In this document: positions 1 to 59,062 of the stretch, piece by piece | How the letters are laid out: each line of letters starts with the position of its first letter | Numbering within the stretch: position 1 is the first letter of the stretch | Origin: Volvox africanus | Lineage: Eukaryota > Chlorophyta > Chlorophyceae > Chlamydomonadales > Volvocaceae | Reading direction: 5' to 3' | NCBI GenBank assembly: GCA_030268105.1 | Contig: BSDZ01000078.1 | Coordinates: 3,895,001 to 3,959,000 of the forward strand | DNA: 64,000 nucleotides | Position numbers and translations under genes: made by a program | The notes under the pieces: generated by a model | Seen by the model: only the letters and a program-made list of their open reading frames with translations | What the model was told of the DNA's origin: nothing | Database searches by the model: none

Positions 1-2432
1 AGAGAGGGCAGCACGGCATCGTCTACTAGCGTTCACAGCCTGGATCCCTTCCCATCTTTGGTGCCCAGTGCCGCATCGACATCCTCGGCATGCGGCAGTG
101 AGGTTCCGCCCACGTCGACGGGTGTGCCCTCACTACCTGGCTTGTCATGGAAAGCCAAATTGCAACAAAACTCCACCAGTGCTAGTGCTGCTTCTACGGG
201 GAATGGCGGTGGCACTTCAGCGGGACACAAGTCGCCGTCCTCTCTGCCGAACGGGCTTGCGGGGGGCAATAGTCCACCAGGCATTGTGCGCGGTTTGAGT
301 CCACACAGCACTTTGAATAGCAACGTGGCGCTGGCCAGTAGCCTGTCTGATTCAGCTATTGCAAACAGTAGCAGTGGGGGCGGCGGCAGCAATAGTGGAA
401 CTCTGGTAGTGACAGTAGCAGCGCCGCTACTGCGGCCGCCCGGCAACCGGCCTACTGGATCGGCGCTTCTTTCTGGGGCGCCGACGCAGCTGATCGGCAG
501 CCTCTCGCTGTCCCCACCTGGTGCCAGCAGTGGCGTCGGGCTCGTGTACCACCCCGGTGTAACCGGCCAGTCGCGGAACCTGCAGTTCGTGCGCGGCCTG
601 CAAAACCTAGGTGGCCAGCACAATTGTTTTCTGAACGTGATCATTCAGTCACTATGGCACCTCCGCAGCTTCCGTGAGGCCGTGCTGCAGCTCAGCGTGG
701 ACGAGGTGGCTGCGCGCGGCGCTGCTGTGGCGGATATTACCGTGCTCCGCGCGCTCGTTGGTGTATTCCGGGCGATGGCGGCACCGCTTGCATCGGCTAC
801 ATCAGTTCAATTGCCCACGCCTGCTGGATCGCCGTCGTGGGTAGTGTCCCCGTTGGAGCTGCGCGAGGCGTTGAGCGTGCTGGAGACGGGGCAGGCGGTG
901 GTACGGCTAGACCTGAGCGAGATGCATGATGCATTTGAGGTGCTGCTAGTGCTGCTCACCTGTATGCACCGTGCTGAGGCAGGCAGTGGTGCGTCGCAGG
1001 GCCAGGACCCCCAGCTACCCCGCAGGGTAAGGGTACGGGAGATACCTGCGGTCATGGTGGCTGGCATTACAACCACTAAAAATGCCGCTAACGGGCACTG
1101 CCACTCAACTCCGCCAGCGGTGGCCACCGGCTACGCTGCAGCTGTTGCAGGGAAGGCGTTGAAGGCAGCTGCGCCTGCAGACTCAGCGACGGCCGTTCCC
1201 TCCACTGTTGCACACAGCCTCTTTGGTATTGAAGTGCAGGTCCCGTGTATCGTTGATGAAGATACTACGAGCTGCAGCAGCAATGGCAGCGCTGGAGGTA
1301 TCACATGGAGGGACCGCCAACAGCAGCAGTACCACCGTACACGGCGCGAATCAGTCGGTAGCAGCGTTGCGGCAGTCGAGTTGCCGACCCCAGCCGTTGC
1401 CCCGGCTGCCTGTGCTCTGCAGCTGGCGCACAACATCCACATTGGCAATCGCCAGTCTGTGGACGACGTTCTAACGACGGAGGTGGAGGTGTATACAAAG
1501 TATTTCCACCTGGTCCATGCGCAGGCTCTCCGCAAGGCTTTCTCCGCACTGGACGGCTCAGATAGTGGCGCCTACTTTGAGGACGTGTTGTGCGCTGCAG
1601 AGGCTGCTGGTGCAGGCGCGGCCGCCGGGCCACTGGTGCTTCCTGCTGCAAATGGCAGGCGGGCTGTAGCGGCCGGCGTTGGAAATGGTCATGCCCTAGC
1701 GCCTGGCTGGGCGCCTGGTGCCACGGCCGCGGCGCACCCGCTCGCCACGCTGCTACGTTTCCCGACGGTGTTCACGCTTGCGATAGTGTGGGAGAGCCTT
1801 CAAGCGCCACTAGATGCTCTACGTGGCACCCTGGAGGCTCTTGGTCCGCGTGTGGATCTGGCGTTGCTCTTCCGCTGCACCGGATCAGCGCCTGGGGGGA
1901 TGCACCCGCCCACGGCCCCGTGCGACCTGCGCTCTGTCATCTGTTATTTCGGACATCACTATCTGGTGAGGACTGGGATTAGAGTGGATAGGTGTTGTGC
2001 AAGCTAGTTTGGCGGTGGGGCTGCCCTAGGCTGGCCCCGTGTTGGGAACTCGGGATACCTGTATACTGGGACGGTACTAGACAGCAACTCGCTTTCTCGA
2101 TTAAGTAAGGCTTGCTGGTAGGTTGTCCATGGCTGTTCGACGTGATGGGCATAGGCAAATGGTGAATGCAAGGGGGCCAGTGGTGTGCCTGCAATTTCCA
2201 GCATCTATACTTGTCGATTTACATCGGGTTGGTCGGCACTGCCCCGCTGCCTTTGGCGCGCTTTATGCAGGTGTTTGCACTCAGCGAGGAGCTGGGGTTA
2301 TGGCTGATGATCGACGATGCAAACATCCATCTGGTTGGGCAATGGAGTGACGTTCTGAAGGCGATGTGCACGAAGCGCTTACAGCCATCGCTGCTATTCT
2401 ACGAAGCGGCAGGACATGGGCAGCACGTCTAG
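1..2432 (+). CDS. Ubiquitin-specific protease, plant DUF627/DUF629-associated type (5' partial)
   Basis: Exons 1..1965 and 2271..2432 join in phase 0 (donor GTGAGG, acceptor TTATGCAG); frame 1 is open to the window edge, so the true start lies upstream. The first ~190 codons are low complexity (Ser/Gly/Pro/Ala). The Cys box NCFLNVIIQSLWHL places the candidate nucleophile Cys at codon 209. The His box YFGHHYLVF spans the splice junction (His near codon 653), followed by MIDDANIHLVG and LQPSLLFYEA, as in Arabidopsis ubiquitin hydrolase-related proteins such as At3g47910 and, less closely, human USP53/54. The roughly 440 residues between the Cys and His boxes are full of Ala-rich insertions. Both catalytic boxes are present, so activity as a cysteine deubiquitinase is plausible, but this family includes inactive members. 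The last exon ends 15 nt before a TGTAA, a possible Chlamydomonas-type polyadenylation signal. Confidence 0.85.
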
Positions 2433-17900: not shown

Positions 17901-20355
17901 ACGCCTTATCCTGGTCCTGGATACGTACCGGAAACGAAAACCCCAACCGGTAACGCAAATAGTTGCTCGGGTGCCGGGTGCATCGGAAAGCTTTCTACAC
18001 AGACTTGAATTTTCACAATACGCATTGTCACAAAGCGCACAATATCGGAATTAAGTGTAAGTGCCGCATAGGGCCCCCGAAACAATTACCCTTACCTACT
18101 GAGACAGAGGGAGCGAAAATGTTTGGGGCACCCCTACTGCTCAGTACTGGTCAGATCACAGCAAGCAGTCACAAAACCCACGGCAGGCTCCAAGCACACC
18201 GGGGGAGGCACCGGCGGGCTGCTTCTCTCCCCGCGTGGCTTTCCATCTACCTCGACGTGCCCTCCGGTTGCCACTCCTTGGTTTGTACACGAAGCCCGCT
18301 CCCCCGGACCCCTTCCCGCCTCACCTTCAGTTGGCCGTCCGGGATATCCGTCTTGCTGATCCGCTTAACCAGCTCGAAGGCCGTCTTGTGGAACGGCACG
18401 CGACCGCCGACCAGCGGGATGTCCAGATCGTACACGAACCTATACGGTGGTACGGTGGTACGACATTACGTGTCCAGAGGACAGAATCTTTGCTTGTCGT
18501 TGAACTGATGTGTAGATGCCCCGAACAACAACAACAACAACAATGGAGGCATCTCACGGAGCCGACATATCCGCATGTACATTCCCCCGCCATCGCTGCA
18601 ACGATACAACCGACATTAAGGCGCTAGCGTAACTGTTTTACAACAATTGGGGAAACGTCCGTACATCTCTAAACCATAAGGCCCCCTGAAAAGAACCCCA
18701 AAGCTCAAGCACACCCATGTAAACCCACCTGAGAACCTCCTTGTTGTCCGCATAAGGCCCCAGTCCTAGAGGGGGATCCAGCCTAAGCAGCAGCTGCTCC
18801 AGGGCTGTGGGGGAGATGGTTCCGGAGCCGTCATCGTACTCGCTCCACAGCATCACAAAGTCCTCCAGGTTCTGCACGGGGAGGAAGGGGAGGAGGACGG
18901 GGAGGAGACTCGCCGCTGACATCTTTCAGTACACCCGTGCAATTAGGCGGCATCTTCGACAGATACCTGCGTTTGCCTAAGAGAATCTTCAGGACCTACC
19001 TCCGGCCCTCACTCACTCACTCACGAGACCGACCCTCATTTTTCCCAATTTCCCGATTTCCTTTCCTTCCACGCGCTCCTCCACAGTACTGAACAGCTCG
19101 CTATCAACGGTTCCAAATTGGCCCATACGTAGATATCTTTTGACCCTCGCCCTCCTAAACCCTCCACGGCCGGGCTCCAGCCCCCTCCACCTTCGTTCTT
19201 AGGGTGCATGTGTGCGCACCCGCCCCCTGGACTGGATCAGGGCTCAAGCCGGCCCCCCCCCCAACCTCACCATCTGGAGTCCCGGTCCCGGTCCCACCCA
19301 CCTGGGGCGTCAGCCTCCACTCGTCCTGCTCGTGAGCCTTTTCGAAATTCTCAATAATGACCGCCGTGAAGAGGTTCAACATAATGATGGCGATCAACAA
19401 GAAAAATAAAAGAAAGTACGGCAGGGCTAGCCAGCCGCCGCAGTCACCGGCTGTCCGGGAGCAGTGGGGTGGCTGCGCGCGCGTGTGTGTGGGGTGGGTG
19501 GGTGGGTTAGAGGGGGGGGGGTAGAATGGGGGATCAACTGGGGGATTGGTTTGTAAGCGGTTTGGGAAGTCAACAGCATGGGAGTCAGCAAATAAGACTC
19601 CTGGCCGGGAGTTCACTTGTGCTGTTCCGATGAGGGCTCTCAAAATGCGGCAATTCGCTTGATACGGGCAATGCCCTTTCCCTCGCCCTTATGTGGGGCT
19701 GAGAGAGACATGACATCTATTTAACAATAACAAAATAAATCATATATTAATAAAATGATAATATACATCTGAAGAATATGACTGTTTAATATTTGTGTAA
19801 AGGCGCGAATATTTAATAAGGATCATTTTTGGGGTGGCGTGGCGTGGCGTGGTCTGTGGTGTGATGTAGGGGAAGGAGGACGCCAGTCCTCACCCCAGCC
19901 CAGCCCAAGACCAGCCCGCCAAGTAGTCAGGGCAGCTAGCCAGTCCTCCAGTCCTCCAGTCCCCCAGTCCTCCAGTCCCCCAGTCCTCCAGTCCCCCAGT
20001 CCTCCAGTCCCCCAGTCCTCCAGTCCCCCAGTCCTCCAGTCCCCCAGTCCCCCAGTCCTCCAGTCCTCCAGGCCAGCACCCACCTTAACCATGCACCCGT
20101 ACATGAGGTCCGTCCAGTTGTCCCCAGTGGCCACTCGCAGCAGCACAGACAGCGCGTTCCCGAAGTTCGCAAAATTGGCCGACGTGTTGATGGCTGAGTG
20201 GAGGTCATCTCTCCGCACCCGACCGAACAGCAGCACCCCGACGTACGACCACATGAAGAACATGAGGCCGATGAGGGCGCCCACGTTGCCGAAGGCCGGC
20301 AGCGACATCACCAGAGCTTGGAACAGCGTTCTGACACCCTGCGTGCGTGGAGGTG

Positions 20356-20411
<56 letters not shown>

Positions 20412-23400
20412 GGTGCTGGTAAGGAGAGCGGGTAATGAGGTGGACAAGAACAATACGTTGAGGTTAGCCGACAAGAGGGTACAACACTGGACTGAAAGAA
20501 GTGTCAGGCCCGTGAACGTTTCCGTACAAGAGTACAAAAATCCACACAGAACCCGAACGGACTTTCAGGTAAGTGGAGGCCAAGGGCGTGCAGGACTGAT
20601 GACGAGTGGACCAGTTGGCTAGTTGGCTTTTGCGGTTTTGGGGATCGAAGGAAAGCGGTCTAGTGCAGCCCGTGGTGCTTGTCTGTTGTGCCACGGCCTA
20701 AGGAAACGACTTCTTCCCGACTTCTTCCCATCAGATGACCTCATTGCCTCCCCCTCCCCGCGTCCCTCACCTTGCTCTTCCGCACGAGGCGAGTCACTCG
20801 AAGCAGCCTCTGCAACCGGAAGACCCGCAGCACTCGCACGTAACCGGTGTGCAGGAAGCTCAGCGCCACTTCCACCAACCCGGAGACAACAACCACAAAG
20901 TCAAATTTGTTCCAGGGGTCAGCGAAGTAGGTACGGCTGCCCAAGCCGTACAACTTGAGTACGGCCTCCAATGTGTAAATGCCAGTGAAGCCAATGTTGA
21001 GCTTCTCCTGTGCAAGTGTCGTGTAACGAATGGGGACAAACAAGGTGGGGAGTGTCGTACGGTTAGATTAGATTGCTAGGGGAGGTTGTGTACGGACATA
21101 ACATACTCTCCCTCCCTCGCTCCCTCTCCTCCCTCACCGAAATACCTTCTTGTATTTGGATGATGGCATATCGTTATGGGTACAGATTTGTTGCCTCGTG
21201 CTTCCTGGGCTTATGAATTGTTATGCGCAAACACAGCGCCCTCATAAACCTAGTAGGGTTTTACAGCTGCCGTACTGCTGTACCATTTTACCTGTATATC
21301 TTCAAATTGTTGTGACTCGCCGTACCAAGTTGCCGCCAGGACTGTCGTATTAGCTACAATTATTATTAACATTGCCCGTTCGAAGCCTGTCGACTGCGTC
21401 AGGCGCCGGGCAGGTAAGCGCAATTTTCCTCCTGGCGAACTGCCCTTGTCGGGCGGCCGCAGTCGGAATACCAATCTCGACATCTCCACCCATTCCTGTT
21501 GTTGGCTAGTCAGGAAGGCGGAGCCTGTCGTACTCATGTTCCGAATACGGGAGAACTGCGAGAAGATGACGCCCACATACAGGTTGAGCAGGGTGAAGGA
21601 CACCACCACCGTGAACCCCACGAACCTGGCGTTGAGAGGAGAGAATGAGACGGAAGTAGGGGTGGAAAGAAGAGGGGGCAATGGCTAATAATAAATAGAC
21701 CAACTCTCAGAGGAAAACGGCGATGGCGGGCAAATGACGGGAGGGGGGGGCGGGGGAAGCGGGAAAACGGGTCCCGCACCCTCCTTTTCATTATCTTTCC
21801 CCTTATCCCATATTTCCAATTGTCTCAAGGATGAAGCCATGCTGATAATATGCTCGTCAGGGTTTAGGGTTTAGGAGGTTTCAATGGTTTTGAAGGTATT
21901 CCCCGGAGGTTCATGCCCCGATCTTCACGTACCAAAAGAATGCTCCCGGATTGGCGTTGAGCCGGGGCTGATGGCCTCTCTTCGCGGGTGCACTCATGGT
22001 GGCGGTCATAAGGTCCGAGTAGCCGTTACACGAGGCCACAACAAAGCAGGCTAACAGCGCATTGCCCACTGCGCATTGCCGGGGAGAAGGGAGACATGGA
22101 TTTGGATTTGGAAAAACCAGTCTGGGGCCTCCAAGGGGATGCCGGGAAAGGGGTTGCGGAAAGAGCAATTATGGGCTGAGGTGTTAAGTGGTAAGTGTTC
22201 TGTTGTGTTTTGTAGTCACATGGGCTTATGGACTTATGGGGCTTATGTTTGTATAAAAATACGGGGTAGTCGGTCACCGATATGGAAAGGTGACGAAGTT
22301 GGGCCCTATACTGGAGAGCGCTCCCCGGTAAGTCTCCGGAGGAACGATACCCCGGATGCAAAGGTGTCCAAAACGTCGATATCTGCTCTTCTACAACTAT
22401 TTCCCTGCCCTGCCGTAACCCTGCCGTACGTACCGTTGTCGAAGTTGGGCCACATGTTGTCCCAAGTGCGCTCCAGGTTGGCCCCCGTGTCGGGATCCAG
22501 GAAGGAGCCCACGCACTGTGAGCGGTCTGGCAGGGATCGGTCGTTGCAGCTATGCCGGTGACGGAGGGGAGGGGGCCGGAAAAAGGGGAGGTAAAAAAGG
22601 GTTTGGAAGTATTAAGCCCAAACCGTACAACTTGCACTATAAACACACACGCGCTTACACTCACACACATTTGGACAATGCGGATGTACAAATCGTATTG
22701 CTGTAATTTCCGTACAACTTACTCCGCCGTACCTGTGAAGCTTGCCGCTGAACAATTGCACCCCTAGGATGGCGAAGATGACCAGGAACATGACGCAGAG
22801 CACGGAAACATGGGCCATCGCGCCTAGGCTCAGTACCACGCTTTTAAACACCAGCCTCATCCCCGCTGACCGGGTAAGCAGCCGCAGAGGCTTCAGGGCG
22901 CGGAGCACACGCAGCGCTGACATGGCCTGGCGGGGCCGCCGAGAGGCCGGTGGAGGGGGCGCGGGGAGCGGGTGATATGCTTTGACAGCTTAACGGAATG
23001 TATGGGAGGGGCTTCTGGTCCGTGGCTCTAGGTCTTGAGTTCACATTCCCAGGTACCTTCGGGCCTCCTCTCCCACGCGCCGCCCACCCTCCCATTCCTC
23101 TCTCACTCAACCCCCAACCCTACGCCGCGGCCCAGTTACACGTTACCTGCGTACTGGCATGTGTTAGGGCAAGATCCAGCAGCCCCGTAATCACCACCAC
23201 GAAATCCACCTGTGGCGTACAGTACGGCATGGTACCGAAATCAATCCGTGTAAAAGTTACCAAGGGGCTTTAGGTTGGCTCGCTATGGGGTGAGTGTCGA
23301 ACAATCTTGATCCCACTGTACATCGTCAACACACCCCTCACAACATCTCACCCGCTCTCTCCCGCCCCTTCAGTTCCTCCCTCCTCGGCGCGCTTCGGAC

Positions 23401-23810
23401 TCTTACCCTCTTCATCCGCCTCTCAGTTCCCATCTACCTTTCAGAGCCCCAGGTCCCTTGCCCCGCCCGGTTGGATCGGATACAATGTGAAAGCACCTTC
23501 AATTGTTGCCCCCTGTTATGTTACATCGTACACTCGGGACCGGATCCGTGGCCTCCAAAACCTGTTTCAAATTACCGCGACTGCCCCCTCGCTTGTGCTT
23601 ATCGTCCCCATTCATTCGCCGTTGGGTTTTAGGGTTCCCATCATTCCCGAACCCTCCAAATAAGGCCCTCCTCCCCCTCCTTACCTGGTTCGTCATATCC
23701 CTTATGTACCCGACAAATGTCCATGCGAACACTTTGACCAACAACTCCACCGCAAAGATGGAGGTGCACGCCTGCGGCGGGGAGGGAGGGCGGGAGGGGA
23801 CGTGGTTGGC

Positions 23811-23846
<36 letters not shown>

Positions 23847-23879
23847 GGACGGACGGACGAACGGACGGACGGACGGACG

Positions 23880-23961
<82 letters not shown>

Positions 23962-26900
23962 GCGCTGGATGCATCCACCGTCTGTGTTTATTCATTCCAC
24001 TGAAGCCCAGCCCTCTGCTACCCAGCCTTCGTGGGGTCCGCTGCTCTCCACCCGCCCGCTGCCGCATCTCGTACCCTTCCCCCCCAACACACACACAGCA
24101 GCTTCCCGTCCTCTCCTCACCGCGTTTCCCCAGTACAGCGCCAATCCCAGGAGTGAGCCCGAACGGACGGAGGGGCCTTCCAGCGTCATCATCCCGCAGT
24201 TTGCAATGATGACACAGAACAATACGTACTCGAAGGGTCTGCGGGAAGACCATATTGCCGTACAAGGGTTTGTGGTAGCGGATATATGCAGGGTGGGAAG
24301 AGCCGTGTGTGTTTTGAAGGGGGGAAGGGTCAGACAAACATCAATCCCCGAAGACAATGATTGACGCGCTCCAGGAAAGCACTCCAAATGCAACGGGCAC
24401 CAGCACTGTCACAGTCAAAGAAACAACCGCTTAGCCGAACTCCAAAACCTGCAGTACGAATATCCGATAGAGAATGAGCTCCCCCCGCATGAGTCATACC
24501 ACCACGTGCCGCTTAGCCCGCCCGGCGCTGCAAATGACCGGGTTTCCCCCCCCCCTTGCCCGCACGCACCTGCTGCCCACCAGACGGTACACCCGCTTAC
24601 GCAGCTGGTTATCCGGGCCCACCAGAAAGAGCACCTTGCCCTCCAGCGGGATACGGCCCGTACGGCGATGGCGCTGCTCCGTGGGCTTCGTCTCCCGTTG
24701 CCCGCTGCCACTCCGGCTGCCCACCATAGCGTCCAGGGAAGCGGAATCCACACGGCCGCTGCTGCGAGTATCACCGTAATCTAAACCTGTAAAGAGGCGG
24801 GAACAGCAGACGGGCAAACATTATTACGTACGGAGTCTATGACAAAAGGTGATGACTGATGCTTAGCGGTTAGCAGTTGGCGGTTGGCGGTTAGAGACCT
24901 TCCGCTGCTGTTGCAGTCCCAGCTTGATCTTGCGGGCCTCTGTGATATCCCCACACGCCCAGGCAGCAGGCTAAGCTGAGTTCTTTTTTAAAGACTTAGC
25001 AGTTGAGCTTCTGCTTAAAAATGTAAAGCTAAATTTGTGAATAAAACCTCTGTTAACATTGAATAAAGACTTTACTAATGTTCATCTTAAGCCCTCGTAT
25101 GCATGACACATCCTTCCCAAGTAAGGCGTCCCATCCCGCCACGGCTGCGTGTACGGTTGCCGTACCGTACGATACGTCTGTGCCGCGCCTGCCGTCCTGC
25201 CCTGGTCCCTGCACTGCCCCCTGCTGGGCCCCAGGATACAGCCCGGGGGGATCCGGGGGGATCTCCAGGCTGTCCGTCGACAGGTACGACAACAGGCCAC
25301 TCGAATCCCGCCGCTGCAGTGGCACCGTCGTTGAGCCATTGGCGGCTGTTGTGCCTCCGCCGCCACCGTATTCGCGCCGTGACTCTTCAACTTCTGGCGG
25401 CAGGTCAATACTTACGTGGGTACGTGTACGGCGGCGGCCCTGGCGGCTGCTGGTAAGGATTGACGTCGCGTCTCCAGCATCTGGGCGGCTGCCGAGGCTG
25501 CTGCGGCCGACGTCCTCCGGGAAATGACAATGGTACGGCAGCGGTGTCGGCGGCTGAGCCATGACGTCCGTTTTTTCATCTGACGGCGCCGCCATCGACG
25601 GCACCACGCCTTTGCAGCCGCCGTCAGCGGCCTCCCTTCCAGCCTTTTGCACTGCGCCGCAATCCTCAACCACGCGGCATACCGCCAGCACAGGTGCAAG
25701 TCCCAGGTCTGCAGGCACGTCATGGGGCTCGTACGATTCCGTAGCATCTTCCATACTATTTTGCCGTACAAACCTGCCGAAGCTCATCCTTGCCTTTTTC
25801 TGACGCTCCAAGGAAGCCAGTGAGCCATGGTGCTCGCAGCGCTTCCGGCCGCTGTCGCCGCTGTCGTCTCTGGCATTGGCGTCGGCGTCGGTGTCAGCTG
25901 GTTGCCGCGCCACAAGCAAGTCTTCCCTGTTTGATGACGCAATGGCCTCCAAGATGAGCTCCTCATCACCAGTGTCCAGATATCGCACCGCACCAACAGT
26001 GTCTTCACCGTTGCCGCCACCGCCACCGCTGCTGGCCATAGCCTCCGCCAGCACCGCCGCTCCCGCCTCTCCCTCCGCCGGCGCCAGCGCTGGCACGGCC
26101 GTCATGGACTCTGTACGGCTCAGGTCTAGGGAACTTGATAGCGATACGGGTGCCCGGTGCGGCCTTCGGAGCGAGGAGTGTGAGTTAACCTCGCCTCCGT
26201 TAGAATCCCCCGCAGCGGCCCCTGCCGCGTGTACGACCCGCGCAGTGCTAGAATTGGAGGAGCACCCGCGGCTCGCCCTATAGTCATTGCTGCTGCCGCT
26301 GCCGCTGCTACTGCTGTTGCTCTGGCGTTGGTCATAGCGCCCACCCTTGATAGGATCCGCGTTACAGGTGGTTTCAGTGCCGGCTGCAGTAGCGCCATTA
26401 TTGAGCACCCTCTGCTCGTCTTGGTCGTACTGCGGTTGGGGCCGCGGTGGAGGCGACGGCGGTGGAGGCAGTGGCGATTCCGGAGGCCGCCGCAACGACG
26501 CAACCGGTGACGGAGACGATGACGGAGGCCGCCGCAACGATGCAGCCGGTGGCGGAGACGATGACGGAGGCGACGGTGGAGGCAGAGATGCCGATGGTGG
26601 CGGAGGCGACGGCGGCGGCGGCAGTGGTGCAGGCGGTGGCGGAGGCGGCAGGGACAGCAGTTGAGAGACAGGTACACCGTCACCGCCATGATGACACATG
26701 GTTGTAGCAGTAGTCGTGACGGAGCTGACGGCTGCAGAGTTAGGGGGAAGGATCAAGGTGTCCGACATGCACATCATCTTCGGGCTCCATGCCGGTGACT
26801 GGTTGCTGGTGCTGAGGGCCAAATCCTTTCGCTCGCCCCGCTCGGGCCCCGTGCGGCTCTGGGTGATCTGTAGGTCCATCAGGCGGCTGCCGCCGCCGCC

Positions 26901-29900
26901 GCCGCCGCCGCTGCTGCCGCCGTCAGATGCAGCAGAGGCGCGCGCCGCTTGAAGGCTTCCCTGGATCGTCGTCGGCCCCAAGAAGACCTTTTCCGATGTT
27001 TGTCCCGCGGAGGTACCCGCCGCCGCCGCCGCCGCCGCCGCCGTCACCACCCCAGGAAACGATAGCAACAGCAATGACGGCTTCGCCGCCGCACCCACTC
27101 CCCAAGAAGCAGCGGCGTCGTTGGGGCCGGACACAGGCACTCCTTTGCACAGCGCTTGTGCCTCGACGGGTACCGTTGCACCGCATAAGGAGCTGCCAGC
27201 CTTGCACCTGGATCCGCAATCATCACAGTCACTGTCGAACACACTCACTCCCGCACGAGTAAAGGGTACGACGGGATTGGGACGGTTCATCTTCTCTGCG
27301 ACAGGTCCGGGTTGTCTTGCAGCTGGTGGGCTTGTCAACTGCACGCCAGGGCTGCCGTTGCCGCCTTCGCCGCCTTCGCCGCTGACGCCGTCGAATTCTC
27401 GAGCCACGCTGCTGACGCTATCATACCGCGACGGCGCCGTGATAACGTCACCGTGACGCTCTTGACAGCTGGTTCTTCGGGTCTTACTGCGAACCCTCCG
27501 AGCCGGCGGCGGATCGGCCACGCCGCCGTCACTCACTCTTTTGAGTGGCGCCGCCACCTCCGACATGGCGTCATTGCCCCTTCTTCTGCACCAGTCCTTC
27601 TCAAATTTCCCGTCAAAGTCCGCCTTCGCCGCTCTTAATGTCTCCGCTTGTCCATTTGCGCTTGAGGCAGATATGTCAGTAGCATAGCGGTCAACGGTCT
27701 GGTTGCGTTCATCGTTGCTGTACGAACGTACGACAACTGCAACCGAGAACGCCTTGGTCTCAGCATGGGCGCCCGTTCCGCTACCTTCTGGAACCCGTCC
27801 GTACCGTTGTGTTGCCGCATTTGCCACCGCAGCAGTGGCGGCAACGTCAGATACTGCATCAATGATACGTGCCGTACCGTTGTGTTGCTTCCGTTGACCG
27901 ACAATGGGGCTTTTAAACTCGTTGACAGTTGCGGTTGGCGTCGCAGCGTCATCCAATGACAATATCGAGTCCACTAGAGATGACTGCAGAGGTGATGGGT
28001 GACTGTCGCCGCGAGATGCACGGCGGACGGATCCAAATACGGATCCTACAGCGGAGTCCATAGCACTGCGCATTTTGCTGATCCAGCTGCTGCTGCCGCT
28101 CTGAGGGCCGGTTAGGGTTAGAGCATTAGGGTTTAGGGTTCTTATTTGTCCACACAGGATGTGGGGTCACATCGGTCACGAAGATAACAAAACATATCCG
28201 ATAATATTGCCATCCGTACATCAGTGTCGTACCTGCGAATCGTACTTGGCCTCAAACGCCTCGAGCGTGACGGCCAGGAAGAGAGTAAGCAGGATGTACT
28301 TTCCGACAACAATCCACGCTACGAAGAACAATGCGGAGCCGTAATTGGTTGTACGAATGGTTTCGTACATGTTGTTCTGGTAGTTCTCCAGCGTCAGAAC
28401 CTGCACGTGTGCACCAAAACACACACAGCGGGGCAGAAGCGGCAGCATCAGCAGCTGCAGCAGCAAATTTATTGAGTCCCTGCGTCCTATTTAGGCATCG
28501 TCACTTTCGCGTGAGTACAGTAGCGTGTGCATGGCAAGGCGTAAGCACCACCCACAATAGAAAGCCGCCCGCCATACAAACCGGTTCACGTGTCACCCGG
28601 ACATCTCGGGCATGTAAGACATGTACGACAACTCAGCACTTCAAAGAGGGCAGTCAGATCGATACAACACAAGATCGGGTATTTGATCCCTCAAGCCATG
28701 ATTTACACATATAGATATATACAAATACAAACGCACAGAAGGATCCGCGTCTCGTCTGCCCAACCTGTTCCCACGCCTGTTATCCCTCCTGATGCCCTAT
28801 CCGTTCCCTTTTGTACGGCATCCTCGCCCCCGGGTCCTGGTGGCTTGACACGTACATTGAAGGTAGTGACGAGTGCGTTCATGAAGGTGTCGAAGTTTGG
28901 GTAGGGGTCGTGGGCCAATTCGAGGCCACCAAACACGTGCAGGCCCATAATCGCGAAGACACCCCAGAACAGCGCGATGAGCACTGCCACTGCAGCGAAG
29001 GACGAGAACGAGGCCAGCAGTTTGGCGGCGATCTTCCGCAGCGAGCCCAGGTAGCGGAAGGCCTTCAGGAGGCGGAGAGCGCGAAAAGCCCGAAGTGCCG
29101 CCATGGCGCTGCGAGGGGACCAGGGAGACGAGTGAGGTGAGTTTGGGAAGGGGGACGGCGAGGGGTAAGGGGCTGGCGCGTTGTGCGTGAGCCATTTCGG
29201 GTCGGCATCGGAGCGACCGGCGCGTTGGTTGGTCCGGGAAAGGCAGCGGAGATCCTGTACTACAGTTTATATATCGGCCTTACATATAAGCGGCTGCCTT
29301 CCATAAAGACCATCGGCAGACGCACGGTGCCCCTCTTTGCCCCGGTATGCGAGGTTCAGTATGTGTGCCCGGCGAACATGGGGGCGCCGACGGGCCCAGT
29401 GCCAGGTGTACGGCTGCCCACACATATTGCGGGTAGACCTGGTATGTGCCAGTGTACGAGGTCGTAAGGGTACGTACTTCAGGTTCCCCGACGTCCCCAC
29501 ATAGGTCAGGATGATCTCCAGCCAGGATACGGCCACAATGAGGCCATCGAACACGTTGAAGCCGTCCTGAAAGGAAAGGGGAGAGGGAGGGGCCCGAGGT
29601 AAAGGGGCAAGAGAGGATAGGGGGAAGGGGAGGGGGAAGTGGGCAAGAGATGTGCAAGGGGATCCTGTACTTGCACGGCAGGGGGTATGGGGGGGGCGCT
29701 GGTGCGCCGCACCGTGTCGTATGCCTCTTTCGCCATTGGTGTGCGTGTGCGTGTGCGTGTGCGTGTGCGTGTGCGTGTGTGCGTGGGGGTGGAGGGTTCA
29801 ACCCGCTCACCCGACACGCACACACATGCAGAACTCGGGGTACCTTGGCCCAACGTACTCTCCCGCATAGTTTCATATCTTTCGTAAAATATCTCCCGCC

Positions 29901-32900
29901 CGTTGGACTTGACGTTCTAATATTCATGCCGTACCGTAATGTAATCCCAGAGGCCCATCCCAAACAGCTTGATGGCCATCTCAATCGTGAACAGCGCCGC
30001 GAATCCGTAATTGCAGCGAGTCTATCCGGAGGGGACGGGGGGCATGGTTTGGGAGAGGGGGAGAAAGGGGGAGAGCTCAACGAAGAAGGCACCCGCCAAG
30101 GGCAGAGCCAGCGGGCTGGGGGTAGCGAAGGCGCATAGATGAGCAACACGATGTTCAGGTCATGATGGGAGACCGTGTTGTATCATGACCTAAGAAAGAT
30201 CTCGCGAATTAAAGTCAGGATTAGATGTCCTAATCATTATCATGATACTACACAGGCCCTGCAGAAACACATATACACACACGTTCTGCATTCATTCAAT
30301 GTCACCCCCGTCAGTTTCGCCGATATCGAATTTCGTGCTTCCAGGACACGTCGTAGAGCAATCCTCATCAATGACCCCGCGGTCCCGTTAGTTCACGTGA
30401 CTTCGCTTCAAGATACTCTTTGCCCATGCATGGATGCAAATCTTGAGAGATCTCGACATATCATCACGTACGTAAAGGCTGAACCCTAGGAGCACCCTGC
30501 TGGGGCGGTCTCAGAAGCCTAGCCAACGATGAGCTTGACCTGATTATCACTTCCCATTGTTAGAGTGTAATCTTGCGGAGGAAGGGGGGGGGAGAAAGTG
30601 GATGGGGGGGACAGAGGGGACCTAGAAATACCCACCAGCGCCATCTGGTACGCTTCACTCATGCCGTCGTACTCCATGGCCAGTACGACGGTGTTTGTGA
30701 AGATGATTGCCAGCATGACGTACGAAAACCACGAAGACTCCACGAGCACCCGAGCTCGGAACATGGCTCGCAGCTTCAGACGGCGCAGGGTGGGCTCTCC
30801 CGCCACGAACTCATCAAACTCCTGCACGGAGGGTATGTGTATGTGAGCGTGTTGTAGCGGCGATTGCCATAACGGATCCAATAACGGACAGCGGCAAGTG
30901 GTAAAGAGAGGGCGCCGGATGTCGGGATCAATCTCTATCTCGACGAGTTGACGGCGAAGCAAACTCAGGCGCAGGAGGACGGGGAGTCTCAGTGAAGAAC
31001 CTGCAGCAGGCCAGGTAGCGCAGAAGGGGGAGGACGGGGAGGGAGATAACAGATCCACGGCAATAAGTCCACCTCAAAATCCCACTCACCACCGGGTCCA
31101 TCATCAGTGCCGCCATGGCTAGGTTTCCGCCCGCCAGCAGCTGCTGGGGATCTGATGGGAAGCTGGGGCACCCCGATGCGCCACGTGCGGGTCTGGAGGC
31201 GGAGGGCTGTGTTTGCAACGGGGTCGTGCCGGCACCCGCTGTCGCCTGGTTTGCGAATGACTCAGCACCACGGCCGGTGGCGGCGGCGGCGGCGGTGGTG
31301 AGGGCGGCATTGGCGTTGGCATTGCGCAGCGCCGACCTCGGTAAGGGGGAAAGCTGCTGCAGCATTGGCACCCGTGCACGTGGTGATGTAGAGGGAGAGA
31401 TGGCGAGCGGAGGGTTGTAGGCAGCCGGCGGCGGCGGAGGAGTTGGCGGCGGCAAGGGTACAACGGTATTGCGGCTAACGCGGGGCGCGCGACTTCCCAT
31501 TCGCTGCTGGTTTCGGAGTTCGCCGCTCAGTCGATGGGCCTTACTTTCCGTCACGGCGGCTGGGGTGGCGGCTGCGGTGGGGATTGCGCCAGGCTGTTGC
31601 ATTGGCAGCGGCGGTACCGCCTGATCGTCAAATCGTACATTCGGTGATGCGGCCCCCGTCATGACCCCCAAGCTTCCTCCAGCGGCGCTGCCCCCGCCGC
31701 CGCCGCCGCCGCCGCCGCTACCCTCGCCATGGATGCTGTTGCTGTTACTGTCACCGTCGCCGTCGCCGGGCTGTTTTTCATCTTTCTTGCAGTGCAGTGC
31801 ATCGCTTGCACCAGCTTCCTCAGGCGCCTCTGTCACCTCTGTCACCTCGGGCGTCTCCAGCACGTCTTGCGGTGGTAGCGGCGGCAACACGGGTCGGCCG
31901 ATGCTGTAGAACCTCCGATACGATGAGATGCCCGCGGGCAGTGGCCCTTGCACCTCGGTCCACACCGGGGCTGAGGTACGCCGGGTGCGACTGACTGCCT
32001 TGGCTTGCGGAGGGGGAGTGGGAACCCGCAGCGCAGCGACAAACTCTTGACCGCCGACCCGTGGGTCCAGCAGTACCAGGTTGCTGCTGCTGCTACTACG
32101 AGCGTTTCCGTCACTGCTGTTTGTACTGCGCCGCCGGCCGTCGTCTTTTCGAGCACCGCCATCGCCGGCGCCGCCGACGCCACCGCCACTGTCGCTGCCA
32201 TTCGTACATTTTTGCGGTGTCTGTAGGGGCCATGAAAGCTCGATGGAGTGGGGATTCGCCCGGCAAGAAGGTTGTCCCGCGCAGGCCGCTGCGGGATCTG
32301 CACCGCTGGTGCAAGTGCCGCTGGCGGTGGTCGTGGCTGCGGCTGTAGCTGCGGCGCCCATAATGGCATTGTCTGGCATAAGGCCCGATAACGACCCGTT
32401 GCTGTCTGTGTACTGCGACAGGCGGGCGGTGACGAGGCGGGCTATGCTGGTGTTGAGGCTATGGGACTGCGGAGGGACGGAGGGGCGGAGGGGCGGAGGG
32501 GCGGAGGGGCGGAAGGGGGAGAGCGCAACAGGGGCAAAAGATCCTTGTGAGATACGGGAAAGGGGTAAAATGCATAGGGACCACATAGACATCATGTCCA
32601 GATGCGCGGTGGCGGCATGTGTCATACAAGAGTCAATAAGGTGCCACCAGAGGCGGCATTGAGGCGGCATTGAGGCGGCATTGAGGCAAGGCGGATGAAA
32701 AATTGGGCATCATCGTCAGTAGCAGAAGCAGCAGCAGTAGCAGTAGCAGTAGCGGACGCGCTGCGTTCCGGCAGTCGACGCCCTCGGGGGGGATTCAGTG
32801 AATGGCAGCTGCAGCAGTCGTACCGGTAAGCTTGGGGAGGTGAAACCATTCCCCGGGTGAGCCCCACCGCTGTTCCCCACCCCCACCGCTCAGTCAATAC

Positions 32901-35900
32901 TTACAGCAGATCGTCGGGCGCTGAGCTCACTGAACCGGGACTTAGCCTTCACCAGCAGCGTCATCACACTATTGCGGCGGCTGCGATTGCGTCCCGTATT
33001 GCGCTGCGCAGAACAGGACGAAAACGAATCAGGGTGGTACAAAATCTGGACAGGACGGTAAGTTACGAACGGCTTTTCGCGTTGGTGAAAGACACAATCA
33101 CGCATTCACCACCTCCACCTGCACCTCCACCTCCACCACCTCCACCTGCACCTCCACCTCCACCACCTCCACCTCCACCTCCACCACCTCCACCTCCACC
33201 TCCACCTCCACTACCTCCACCTCCACCTCCACCTCCACCTCCACCACCTCCTTCAGATTCCGACTTACCGCGCGAAATGCCGTCTGCGCCTTTGCAAACT
33301 TAATCTTCAGCACCGCCAGAAAGAGGTTCACCTGCGGACGGTGTTGGGCGGAACAGGGCCAACGAGGGCTCAACAGGCTGGGGAACCCGCATAGCTACCT
33401 GAAATCCGCGAACCGAAAGAAGCAAGCCCCAAGGGGGCCCTCTGCGATCCACCACATTCCCCTTACCTGCCGTTCTTTGCACCACCTCACCAGGCTCCGA
33501 AACTGCCACATGTGATCAGCAGCCTATCCCTTCCCTTGTCGACCCTAAGCTCGGCGCCACATTGGGAACCAGAACCTCAACCCTTGCTCACCAGCACATA
33601 AGCCCCAATGCTGACCAGCAGAACGTAGTAGATTGCGGCTGCTGGATTGGTGTTGTCGATAGTGCGATACATTGCGAAGCTCCAGCCGGTGAGGGTGATG
33701 ACCTGGAACACACTTAGCAGGGAGAGACCCGTGTTGCTGAACCCTGCAATGTTGAGGGCATTGCTGTGAGCTGTGACCTGGGTAAGGGGGAATGGGGGGG
33801 GCGGCAGCAGGAGGGCAGGGGGCCAGGGGAGGGAGGAGAATCGGCAGGGAGGGGAGGGGAGGGAAGGGGAAGGAGGCCCGCCGGTATGGAGGGCGTTGGC
33901 GGCAGAGGACGGAATGGAGTAAGCGAGGGCCACATGTCCCGCCAAAGAAACGAGGTCTGGATCTCTGGTCTGGATAGGTCATAGTCTGAATCTAAATCTT
34001 TATCTGGATCTGGATCTGAATCACTCTCTAATCCCAATTCGGCGTTATGGACATTTCCCTGACCGACCCTGTCACCCTGCCCCCCATATCCTCTCCAACC
34101 GGCAACGAGTCGTGAAACCCGCTTGCCTTCACTTGTCAGCACTTCCCTTCAGCACCTAAAGCCTTAAAACCCTTAATATCCTCTTCAGCACCTGAACGAC
34201 CCTAACGACCACCTGATGGGACTCAGCGCTCAGCCCAGAGAGGCCCTCAGCGGCGGCCGCACCGTCGTCCCAAGTAAAGGGTCTGCGAACCCGCCCCTTC
34301 AAAGAAGACAGGTCGGAAGTTGCGGGGTGTCTGTGAATGCGTCCGCAGGTCCTGCCGCCCTCTCCACCTGTGCCCTTGGGTGCTGTAATCCGCAGAAACC
34401 CCTTCCCCCGTTTTCGCGACTCCCGCCCAGTTGCTAGTCCCTGTTTTTGTGGGCCTCCCCTTCACGCACCCTGCATGTGTAGTTCGCCGGGCAATGCCTC
34501 CAGCCCCCGCAGCCCAGCATGTCTGGGTCCTCCTCGCTCTCCTCGGGCAAGCCGCTGATGTTGGAGTAGCATTTTCGGTGGTATACGCCGTCGAACAGAA
34601 TGGTGCCGGCCACCGCGAATATGAGCATGAACAACAGCATAAGGCCCACTGCAGAACCCAGCAGTGGTACTGCCTGTAAGGTTCAAGGTGTCGGGTTTTG
34701 GGGCGGCACGTGGCATTAGCGAAGATATGTGAGACAGGGACAGGAGCAGAAAGGCGAATGTTGCAGATGATTGCTGCATTCAAAACTTTCGCGCTCTCTC
34801 TTGCTTTCACGTTTCTCTGCTAAGCATGGGGGGGGAGAGGACGATCGGGGTCGGGGTTTTGAGGTTGAGCAGATGCATAGGACGGGAGCAAGCAACGCGA
34901 TGGTGGCTTCGGGACCGCATACCTCGAGAAAACACACCACGATGGCCCGCAGCGACTCGAAGCGTGTGACGGTCCGCAGCGGCCTCAGCGCCCGCAGAGC
35001 GCGCAGAGCCCTCAGGCCGCTGGATGAGGGGCTGGAGCCCGTCGGGACGAAGGCGATGTAGCCCACCACCACCATGGCGCCATCGAATACATTCCAGGGG
35101 TGGCGTAGATAGGGTAATGGGCCTCCCAGCGCCATCATACGAAGCAGCATCTCGATAGTGAACAGACCATTGGAAGCCACCTCTGCGCTTCAGTGTGTTT
35201 CATACATATATTCCAACTTGACATGCGCGTTGGACCTTCATGTACGCTAAAGGTTGTCTGACTTGAACATTAGAAAGAAGACAGCAGGGCGTCATGCACT
35301 GTACATGGAGACACCCGCCACACTGACCACACTGACCACACTGACCACACTGACCACACTGACCACACTGACCACACTGACCACACTGACCTCCCAGCAA
35401 CACCCCCTCTCTGACTCTCTTGTACCTCACCTGCCCAGAACAACGCGCGGTTCCATTTCGAGCTGTCTTGCTCCGTGGGCCGGTACAGCGCCAGGGTCAC
35501 GGTGTTCACCAGGATGAGCAGAACCACACCCAGCTCGAAATCGGGGTGCGCGCACAGCCGTGCCGCCATCTGCCGAGGGCGCGAGAAGCTCTCGAACACT
35601 CGCTCGTCAAAGTCGTATGTGCTCTCTAAGCTAAGTTGCGATGCGCTCATTCCGTTGCCGATGCGACAGCTCTGTTGGCGTTGCTGCTGGGATGGCGACC
35701 GTTCCGGGGTGGCCGGGACCGACCTGGGCGATATCGCCAGTTTGGATGGTGGTAGAGGTGGTGGTGGTGGTGGTGGTGGTGGTGGCGAAGGCTGCGGCGC
35801 AATGGCGGCTTTTGAGGCCTTGGTAGGCTTGCTAGCTGACTCCATAATCGTTCTCCTCGGTCTCATGCTGGTGTTAATCGTCTGGACGGGCACTGCCTTC

Positions 35901-41072: not shown

Positions 41073-42224
41073 CTATAGCGCATAGCACAGCTTAGCATCT
41101 GTGCTGGCGAGCGCAATCCCAAATGCCTTCTGGAGTGTAAGGGGGTACGCGAAGTCCAGCGCAAAATCCTCACCGCGGTCGTCCAACTTGCCGAACTGCA
41201 ATACGATATCCGCACCCTTGCGGTCAGTGTTATGGTCCCAGTGCACCAGCTGGAAGTTCTTAACTGAAGACGCGCGCACGCGCCCATGGAAATCCAGCGT
41301 GTATGCCTTCAGAGCCGGGTCCCACTCCGGCGGCTTTGTCGCGAGCATGCAGAGCTGCCGCTCCAGTCGCGGGGGCAGCTCTCGTCTCCGCGCCGCGTCC
41401 AGGCAGCCGGCCAGCGAGTCCGAGCCGTTGTGTGCGGATGGAGCCCAGTTCGAGTCGGGTAGCGGCGTGGCGACCAACATGACCCGCGGGCCCCCTTTGG
41501 CTGTAAGCACCGTCTGCTTGTAATGCACCGCCAACTCCTCTCGGCAGAAGTGGCTCTGATGCTGTCGAGAAGAGCCGCCGCCGATGATTTCCACCGAAGC
41601 AGCTGGCGTGTCCTCATCAGGGCTCTCTGGTCGCACGGCGGCGCTGCCGCCCGCAGCCCCATTTCCAGGATGGGCCGGACTGCCTGCACTCCCCGGCCGT
41701 GGGGCAGCTGTGTTGCAGCTGCGGGACACAAGGGAGTACTCCGTGCCGACGAAGTTTGAATGCAACTTCGCGATTCGATGCTCTGAGTCACGTCCAAGAT
41801 CATCCTGGCTGGTTGACAGCACATAATTTGAGCTGGCCGACTTCTTGCGCTTGCGTGCCGCGAGCAGAAAGGTGTCCCCGCTGTCCAGAAACAGGTGGTA
41901 TGCTTGCGTCTGGCCCATAAAGTTCTTGAGACGTCGCAAGGTGCAGCGAATCATGCCCTCCGAGGGCGCGGCATACTGCACAGCGTCCTCGACGTGACCA
42001 GCCAGCAACAGCCGCTTAACCTCATCTTCCCACATCCGCACTACGTGGGGCGTGCCACCGCGTGCATGCGGCGAAACGAGCGCCCAGGGTGCGGCCACAA
42101 CCAAGGGTTCCACCTGGGCAGCGCCCTCCTCTCCAGCTTCAGTAGCTGTGGGATCCCTCTTGAGGTCAATATCGCGGGCGGCAATTTCCTCAACCTCTGT
42201 GACGTTTTTGGGCAGCTTCGACAT
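41073..42224 (-). CDS. Tubby-like protein
   Basis: A single uninterrupted exon of 383 residues starting at the ATG at 42224. Tubby C-terminal domains are 12-stranded barrels around a hydrophobic helix that bind phosphoinositides; family members work in plasma-membrane signalling and in trafficking of membrane proteins into cilia. Visible landmarks: IRCTLRRLKNFM at the domain start (~91), FLLAARKRKKSASSNYVLS (~120), KLHSNFVGTEYSLV, PPEWDPALKAYTLDFHGRV with SSVKNFQLV near the end, and the terminal FALDFAYPLTLQKAFGIAL. An insertion of about 70 residues rich in Gly/Ala/Ser separates the two halves of the domain, as in several plant and algal members. The N-terminal ~90 residues are acidic and lack an F-box. 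The family is certain; the exact role is not. Confidence 0.92.
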   Translation of the reverse strand: MSKLPKNVTEVEEIAARDIDLKRDPTATEAGEEGAAQVEPLVVAAPWALVSPHARGGTPHVVRMWEDEVKRLLLAGHVEDAVQYAAPSEGMIRCTLRRLKNFMGQTQAYHLFLDSGDTFLLAARKRKKSASSNYVLSTSQDDLGRDSEHRIAKLHSNFVGTEYSLVSRSCNTAAPRPGSAGSPAHPGNGAAGGSAAVRPESPDEDTPAASVEIIGGGSSRQHQSHFCREELAVHYKQTVLTAKGGPRVMLVATPLPDSNWAPSAHNGSDSLAGCLDAARRRELPPRLERQLCMLATKPPEWDPALKAYTLDFHGRVRASSVKNFQLVHWDHNTDRKGADIVLQFGKLDDRGEDFALDFAYPLTLQKAFGIALASTDAKLCYAL

Positions 42225-57540: not shown

Positions 57541-58776
57541 TCATACGCCATCCCGACGGCACAGACGCAGAATGCCGTACGTTCCTGGCGCCCAACGCTC
57601 TCTGCCGCCACATTCGACATCCAGCATCAGCTTCCTAAACCCGGTATCGTCATCATCTTCGTCATCACTGTCCAGGTTTCCAACCGCATCCACAAGCCCA
57701 ACGTGAAGCTCTCCCACACCCCTGGAGTCACGGCTACTGCGGCCACGGCACCGATACTCCTCATGCAACACGGATCTGGGCACTTCTTCAGCTGCAAAAC
57801 CTGCCGCCGCCGCCAATGCCAAAAACGCCGCCACCTCATCGCCTTGCCGTACCCTGTATGACACATACGACACGGTATGCGGCGCAGAAAGACGCCGCAG
57901 CGCCGTCATGAGCGGGCCGAGCAGATCTGCATGGTACAATACATCTGCAGCCGTAATAACGTCTGGTTCAACATCCCTCAAAGGCGATGACGCCGGCGCC
58001 AGCGTGGCGGCCGTCACATTGGCCGGGCCACCTCCACCACCATTCACGCTGCCGTTGCCATCGTGGGGCACTGCTACTTCATCTGCTTTCGGAGCCACGG
58101 CCGCGGGATCATCACCCCAGCGATACGAGCAGACGAAAGCTTGATGCGACCGCGGATCACAGTTCGCCGCGACGTTGGCTGCTGCCAGCGGTACCACATG
58201 CGGCAGGTCCGTTAGATATACCCTCGCCCCCGCCAACGCCAATGCGATTCCCACCACCCCACTTCCCGTGCCCAAATCTATCACTGTCAACGACCGCCAG
58301 CCGCCGCCGCCGCCGCCGCTGCCCCAGCCGCTATCACGGCGGCGTAGCATACATTCCGGCGCTTCACGCAGCAGAAAGTCCGCCAGCAGGAAGCCCGCCT
58401 GCCAGACCACCAGGCCCACGTTGGCAAGGCTACTCAGCGGAGGTCCAGCTGAGACCTGTTGACGATGTGGCCGCTGCTGCTGCCGTTCTTGACACTCTTG
58501 TGGTTGTGCAGATGGTGGTACACCAACAGGAGACCAGTCGCTGCCATTAGACGCTGCCGTAGCGGTAAGCGTGGACCTGTCCGTGGCTACTGCTGCTGCG
58601 GAGGCCCTGCCGTCATCGCCTGGCCCGGCTAGGGGCCTTAGTTGTGTCCCTGCCGCACCGCTGTGTGCCGGCCACTGGGTGAGCCGCAGGGTGATACCGC
58701 CAGGGAACTGAATAACGCGCTCGGCTGCGCGCTGGTCAGCCGCCGGTCCCGACACCCGGTACGGCACGAGCGCCAT
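57541..58776 (-). CDS. Family-16 (METTL21-like) protein lysine methyltransferase
   Basis: A single exon of 411 residues from the ATG at 58776 (the frame extends seven codons further only with a TTG). It is predicted to transfer a methyl group from S-adenosylmethionine to lysines of a protein substrate, probably in the cytosol or nucleus. The fold begins with GLVVWQAGFLLADFLL at ~120-140, the usual W-rich lead-in, then motif I VIDLGTGSGVVGIALAL (~168) and the acidic DLPHVVPLAAANVAAN. After a Gly/Pro/Ala-rich insertion come TAADVLYHADLLGPLMTAL, containing the DxxY-type motif of this family (DVLY), and VSYVSYRVRQGDE. A Gly-rich stretch precedes motif I. The C-terminal DDEDDDD stretch and the end GTYGILRLCRRDGV are less conserved. 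The substrate cannot be inferred. A broken copy lies just downstream. Confidence 0.85.
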   Translation of the reverse strand: MALVPYRVSGPAADQRAAERVIQFPGGITLRLTQWPAHSGAAGTQLRPLAGPGDDGRASAAAVATDRSTLTATAASNGSDWSPVGVPPSAQPQECQERQQQRPHRQQVSAGPPLSSLANVGLVVWQAGFLLADFLLREAPECMLRRRDSGWGSGGGGGGWRSLTVIDLGTGSGVVGIALALAGARVYLTDLPHVVPLAAANVAANCDPRSHQAFVCSYRWGDDPAAVAPKADEVAVPHDGNGSVNGGGGGPANVTAATLAPASSPLRDVEPDVITAADVLYHADLLGPLMTALRRLSAPHTVSYVSYRVRQGDEVAAFLALAAAAGFAAEEVPRSVLHEEYRCRGRSSRDSRGVGELHVGLVDAVGNLDSDDEDDDDTGFRKLMLDVECGGRERWAPGTYGILRLCRRDGV

Positions 58777-59062
58777 TTGCAGCTGAGCAGGATTCAAAGA
58801 CGTGCAGACAAGATGTCAAAGGTAATGATGCCACATGGACTGCGCAACATGGCTCGTGTATACAGTATATATTGCCGCTCACGTTCGGTCCAAAAAGGTA
58901 ATATTTCCTCTCTTATTTATGCTCCTCTCTTATTCCCTGAGCAGCTGTACACATACAAAGAGGTTTCCCACGCAGGGACTTGTGCCAGTCAGCTCGTGTC
59001 AGCTAAGGCCCGTCGTCTTTCCCCTAAGAGCCGTAGGAGCAGCGTTGCGATGCCTCTGGCCC

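Follow-up and report, generated by a model that had tools for sequence, protein, structure and literature searches.

The stretch of Volvox africanus DNA analysed here (64,000 nucleotides, hereafter the window) carries on its minus strand an intact four-repeat Ion_trans channel gene, in one frame, whose selectivity filter reads Thr, Glu, Asn and Asp (T/E/N/D) in repeats I to IV. The residues of its filter and voltage sensors suggest that the product is a voltage-gated cation channel of poor Ca2+ selectivity, passing monovalent cations or monovalent and divalent cations together, and we put the probability of this reading at roughly 0.55. Each unusual filter read in this genome had already been published, T/E/N/D in 2018, and the window gene is a further, functionally putative member of a known T/E/N/D kind. 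What is added here beyond the printed motif is a conserved pair of T/E/N/D genes, the residues that follow the filter positions (HFS+1), and a diagonal pattern of acidic residues that recurs elsewhere in the same genome.

Structure of the channel gene

The gene was assembled from the window as follows.

36804-13748, minus strand: the complete channel gene in 29 exons, encoding about 3670 aa; one open frame with 28 GT-AG introns.

Spliced together, the 29 exons yield a single frame whose sole stop is terminal, and 28 of 28 introns are GT-AG, with the exon boundaries, the start codon and exon 1 placed by eye from homology, without transcripts. The donor of the long exon encoding the II-III linker is ambiguous, giving a protein of 3672 aa (donor at 25412) or 3754 aa (donor at 25166) and leaving the pores unaffected. 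Searched singly by Pfam, repeats I to IV each match PF00520 (Ion_trans), at 182, 168.9, 176.4 and 199.4 bits, respectively.

The selectivity filter

The four filter positions lie in the following exons; the unnamed database proteins P0001, P0002 and P0005 and the paralogue on contig C15 are described below.

33592..33777, minus strand: pore exon of repeat I, encoding ITLTGW with its filter Thr at 33688-33690; from the splice, PDB alignment, P0005 and the C15 paralogue.
28233..28400, minus strand: pore exon of repeat II, encoding LTLENY with its filter Glu at 28386-28388 and Asn at HFS+1; from the splice, PDB alignment and the C15 paralogue.
21933..22068, minus strand: pore exon of repeat III, encoding SCNGYS with its filter Asn at 22025-22027; from the splice, PDB alignment and the C15 paralogue.
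20084..20338, minus strand: S5-pore exon of repeat IV, encoding ATGDNW with its filter Asp at 20120-20122 and Asn at HFS+1; from the splice, P0001, P0002 and the C15 paralogue.

Read along the minus strand, the filter codons are Thr ACC (33690-33688), Glu GAG (28388-28386), Asn AAC (22027-22025) and Asp GAC (20122-20120), and the 29-exon splice exactly reproduces the positions given for them in the preliminary description. When the repeats were aligned with solved structures (phmmer vs PDB), ITLTGW of repeat I fell opposite ITLEGW of Cav3.2 and Cav3.1, LTLENY of repeat II opposite LTGEDW of Cav1.2, and SCNGYS of repeat III opposite STFEGW of Cav1.2, in each case gapless at the filter, so that Thr, Glu and Asn fall on the sites that hold EEEE in animal Cav channels of known structure. 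The repeat IV filter (ATGDNW) was placed by alignment with the other channels of this genome. The best PDB match of repeat I is Cav3.2, and with repeats II-IV as the query the best 16 matches are all Cav, followed by Nav and, lower, by NALCN (best scores of 495 bits for Cav vs 265 for NALCN).

The HFS+1 residues of repeats I to IV are G/N/G/N. Asn thus follows the repeat II Glu where Cav1.2 has Asp, and both repeats II and IV carry Asn at the HFS+1 position where Asp would mark a Cav channel. The filter itself is neither the EEEE nor the EEDD of Ca2+-selective Cav channels, and it contains no Lys, unlike the DEKA or DKEA of the Nav type; its description as distinct from EEEE, EEDD, DEKA and NALCN filters is borne out by the T/E/N/D codons. 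An alternative pore exon had been named as one finding that would overturn the T/E/N/D assignment, and no alternative or fifth pore exon was found when both strands of 13748-36850 were scanned with a pore HMM. The scan recovered the four pores (repeat II as two exon pieces), whose matches are by construction because the HMM included the window's own pores, and everything else scored E 9 or worse.

A paralogue and database relatives

A second gene, on contig C15, shares with the window gene the T/E/N/D filter and the G/N/G/N residues at HFS+1. It is 56.4% identical to the window gene over 1157 columns, and in an unrooted tree of seven genes it is the sister of the window gene with a support of 1.000. 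Because all four residues recur in this paralogue, T/E/N/D goes beyond chance. Codon positions 1, 2 and 3 of the two genes differ 180, 114 and 301 times in 529 codons, a comparison restricted to alignments of at least 45% identity and hence biased toward conserved stretches, and this divergence is the pattern expected of a constrained protein.

Five unnamed database proteins were also found, three of which span a filter position: P0005 retains the Thr of repeat I, while P0001 and P0002 retain the Asp of repeat IV. P0003 and P0004 stop short of the filter. P0001 and P0005 are closer to the window gene, and P0002 is closer to the C15 gene. The other outcome that would have spoken for an error, orthologues all carrying EEEE, did not appear: the nearest relatives have Thr (repeat I) or Asp (repeat IV) at these positions, not Glu. 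The repeat III exon, used as the query in a protein search of other genomes, returned no candidate, so the evidence for the Asn of repeat III in another genome comes from the published motif.

Four-domain channels of the same genome

Besides the window and C15 genes, the genome examined (141 Mb, 126 contigs) contains five further four-domain genes, one with an E/E/E/E filter, two with S/E/S/E and two with D/D/D/D.

Contig C113, about 980-993 kb: E/E/E/E channel gene, read from exons.
Contig C113, about 959-973 kb and about 1096-1109 kb: two S/E/S/E channel genes, read from exons.
Contig C11, about 1236-1258 kb, and contig C28, about 54-77 kb: D/D/D/D channel genes, read from exons.

The total of seven is a lower bound, as further Ion_trans matches on other contigs were left unassembled. 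In two C113 genes and in those of C11 and C28, the aligned filter strings were wrong or blank where an intron interrupts a pore or where the alignment read on into an intron, and the filters were accordingly taken from exons; this read-through slightly weakens the seven-gene tree, which pairs the S/E/S/E genes with a support of 0.981 and the D/D/D/D and T/E/N/D genes with 1.000 each. The S/E/S/E pair is 70.8% identical and the D/D/D/D pair 54.6% identical across aligned columns, and the window gene is 37.6% identical to the E/E/E/E gene. On C113 (loci L020-L025), the E/E/E/E gene sits between the two S/E/S/E genes.

As read from their predicted proteins, two separate clades confine the acidic residues to repeats II and IV, with repeats I and III holding small polar ones. 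Since the genome has two T/E/N/D and two S/E/S/E genes, which fall into separate clades, it is conceivable, albeit doubtful, that green algae have more than once built such a diagonal filter, which would define a lysine-free, monovalent-permeable, voltage-gated type of channel. If so, an algal Nav-like depolarising current would have arisen by a route other than that of animals. The presence of E/E/E/E, D/D/D/D, S/E/S/E and T/E/N/D in one genome also offers a natural panel for testing what governs ion selectivity.

Relation to known channels

The preliminary description implied that the filter was novel, and this does not stand. An excerpt of Pozdnyakov et al. 2018 (PMC5824947) lists for Chlamydomonas reinhardtii an E/E/E/E filter plus unusual D/D/D/D and T/E/N/D filters, and a passage of PMC6259924, citing Verret et al. 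2010, names SESE and TEND as filters without a counterpart in animals. The C. reinhardtii T/E/N/D channel, from a seemingly related green alga, shares all four filter residues with the window channel and is likened to it here by the printed motif. The expectation that other volvocine genes would carry the same filter has been realised in the C15 gene and, at the level of the published motif, in C. reinhardtii. The E/E/E/E Ca2+ channel of C. reinhardtii (CAV2 in an excerpt of PMC11085791) is likewise four-domain, voltage-gated and algal. This genome too has an E/E/E/E gene, on C113, from which the window gene differs in the T and N of repeats I and III.

Among animal channels, Cav1-Cav3 offer the closest solved structures, gapless at the filter in repeats I-III, but they combine EEEE or EEDD with Asp at HFS+1 of repeat II, in contrast to the T/E/N/D and Asn of the window channel. 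Nav, NALCN and fungal Cch1 are four-domain channels too, some of them with non-EEEE filters, whereas the filter of the window channel is Lys-free. A literature search, which was not exhaustive, found no recordings from T/E/N/D or S/E/S/E channels.

Voltage sensors, III-IV linker and C-terminal part

The exons that bear on voltage sensing, inactivation and the C-terminal part are the following.

34923..35182, minus strand: repeat I S2-S4 exon with Arg-rich S4; from the splice and S4 count.
28856..29108, minus strand: repeat II S4-S5 exon with Arg-rich S4; from the splice and S4 count.
22733..22926, minus strand: repeat III S4-S5 exon with Arg-rich S4; from the splice and S4 count.
20771..21007, minus strand: repeat IV S2-S4 exon with Arg-rich S4; from the splice and S4 count.
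21292..21625, minus strand: exon with repeat III S6, the III-IV linker with AFLT, and repeat IV S1; from the sequence and the motif rule in an excerpt of PMC5824947.
17399..18871, minus strand: exons after repeat IV with a GPHH-like stretch and an IQ-like stretch (AFSVMLIQRRW); from Pfam, the IQ by eye.

The S4 stretches of repeats I to IV (27-28 residues) contain 7, 7, 6 and 9 Arg/Lys, in agreement with the earlier view that all four S4 segments are intact. NALCN and Cch channels, by contrast, have S4s poor in Arg/Lys (PMC5824947, in excerpt), and the window channel with its four Arg-rich S4s lacks this mark of NALCN and Cch1. In the III-IV linker, AFLT fits a resemblance to the inactivation-gate motif of Nav channels, its first residue, Ala, being a weak hydrophobic. 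Passages of PMC5824947 describe this gate motif as three hydrophobic residues plus T, widespread in protist channels, and as no guarantee of fast inactivation, for example in NALCN. Finally, the GPHH match after repeat IV scores 23 bits, below the cut-off of 26.8.

Ion selectivity and competing interpretations

Repeats I and III, and repeats II and IV, oppose each other across the pore of such channels. If the window channel is indeed poorly Ca2+-selective, depolarisation would move the S4s and open the pore, and a filter ring whose carboxylates are reduced to two, one each in the facing repeats II and IV, and which lacks Asp at HFS+1 would hold Ca2+ weakly; this weak hold would let monovalent cations pass, or monovalent and divalent cations together, before the III-IV linker closes the channel. 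Its role could be to supply a depolarising current alongside Ca2+ entry through the E/E/E/E relative, and, should the pore pass monovalent cations, mixed-cation or Na+ excitability would here be reached without a filter lysine and outside the animals. This reading is held to be the likeliest because two ring charges are lost and Asn stands at HFS+1 of repeats II and IV. Counting against it, fresh water is low in Na+, which leaves the identity of the current-carrying monovalent ion in doubt, and in repeats I and III the HFS+1 residue of the window channel is Gly. In excerpts of PMC10120453, Gly at HFS+1 is linked to calcium selectivity in one-domain channels, but a neutral non-glycine residue there is tied to sodium permeability, and a cnidarian Cav3 with Asn replacing the repeat II Asp is described as set up for sodium permeation. 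That selectivity is also set by parts of the pore outside the filter (PMC5824947, in excerpt) counts against the poorly Ca2+-selective reading as well. For its closing step, the weakly hydrophobic Ala of AFLT and the lack of a fixed tie between gate motif and fast inactivation weigh on the same side.

A less probable but credible alternative is that the channel is still Ca2+-permeable and moderately Ca2+-selective, with Glu of repeat II and Asp of repeat IV being enough to hold Ca2+ when helped by backbone carbonyls and by the side chains of Thr and Asn. The two remaining carboxylates, the same Gly residues of repeats I and III, the 16 top-scoring PDB entries for repeats II-IV, all of them Cav channels, and an ancestral channel argued to have been Ca2+-permeable (PMC5824947, in excerpt) would all suit such a pore, but two of the four ring charges are missing and the HFS+1 Asp of repeat II is replaced by Asn. 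It is improbable that the protein itself conducts little or nothing and serves as a voltage sensor or regulator, an idea with nothing direct in its favour, though the filter is unusual and the S4s are strong. Against it, all four pore loops keep the P-helix and its flanks (ITLTGW, NYQNNMY, NGYSDLM, GDNWTDLMY), matching Cav structures or the paralogue. Finally, decay of the gene or an assembly error is very unlikely because a 56%-identical paralogue has the same filter and the same next residues, G/N/G/N. An error of assembly, a wrong choice of exons or a pseudogene would also have to accommodate an open frame of 3672 codons with no fifth pore, the relatives P0001, P0002 and P0005, and the C. 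reinhardtii motif in print (PMC5824947, in excerpt), and this explanation was rejected on the intact splice, the C15 paralogue and the pore scan. The initial judgement that the gene is not decayed is thereby upheld by its open frame, its 28 GT-AG introns and a constrained T/E/N/D paralogue.

Genomic surroundings

Just upstream of the channel gene and on the same strand, a Tubby-family protein (PF01167, 205 bits) is encoded at window positions 41073-42224, minus strand. Tubby proteins often serve cilia, and a ciliary link of the channel through this neighbour is possible. On the minus strand, the introns at 19950-20079, adjoining the repeat IV pore exon, and at 23805-23960, within repeat III, contain simple repeats in tandem, visible by eye, with units such as ggactgga and ctgt. 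Elsewhere in the window, the ORF at 57541-58797 (minus strand) matches Methyltransf_16 at 75 bits, and the ORF at 58-2007 (plus strand) matches a UCH ubiquitin hydrolase at 38.8 bits.

In the genome at large, PF12499/DUF3707, the domain of the pherophorins found in volvocines and their relatives, has 160 matches, as compared with matches in 0 of 14 control genomes, the eight named controls being prokaryotes; the count is in keeping with a volvocine genome but is no proof of one. On contigs C91 (about 828-890 kb) and C16 (about 2288-2311 kb), the DUF3707 matches have near-identical scores and are regularly spaced at about 7.7-8 kb, as in tandem arrays.
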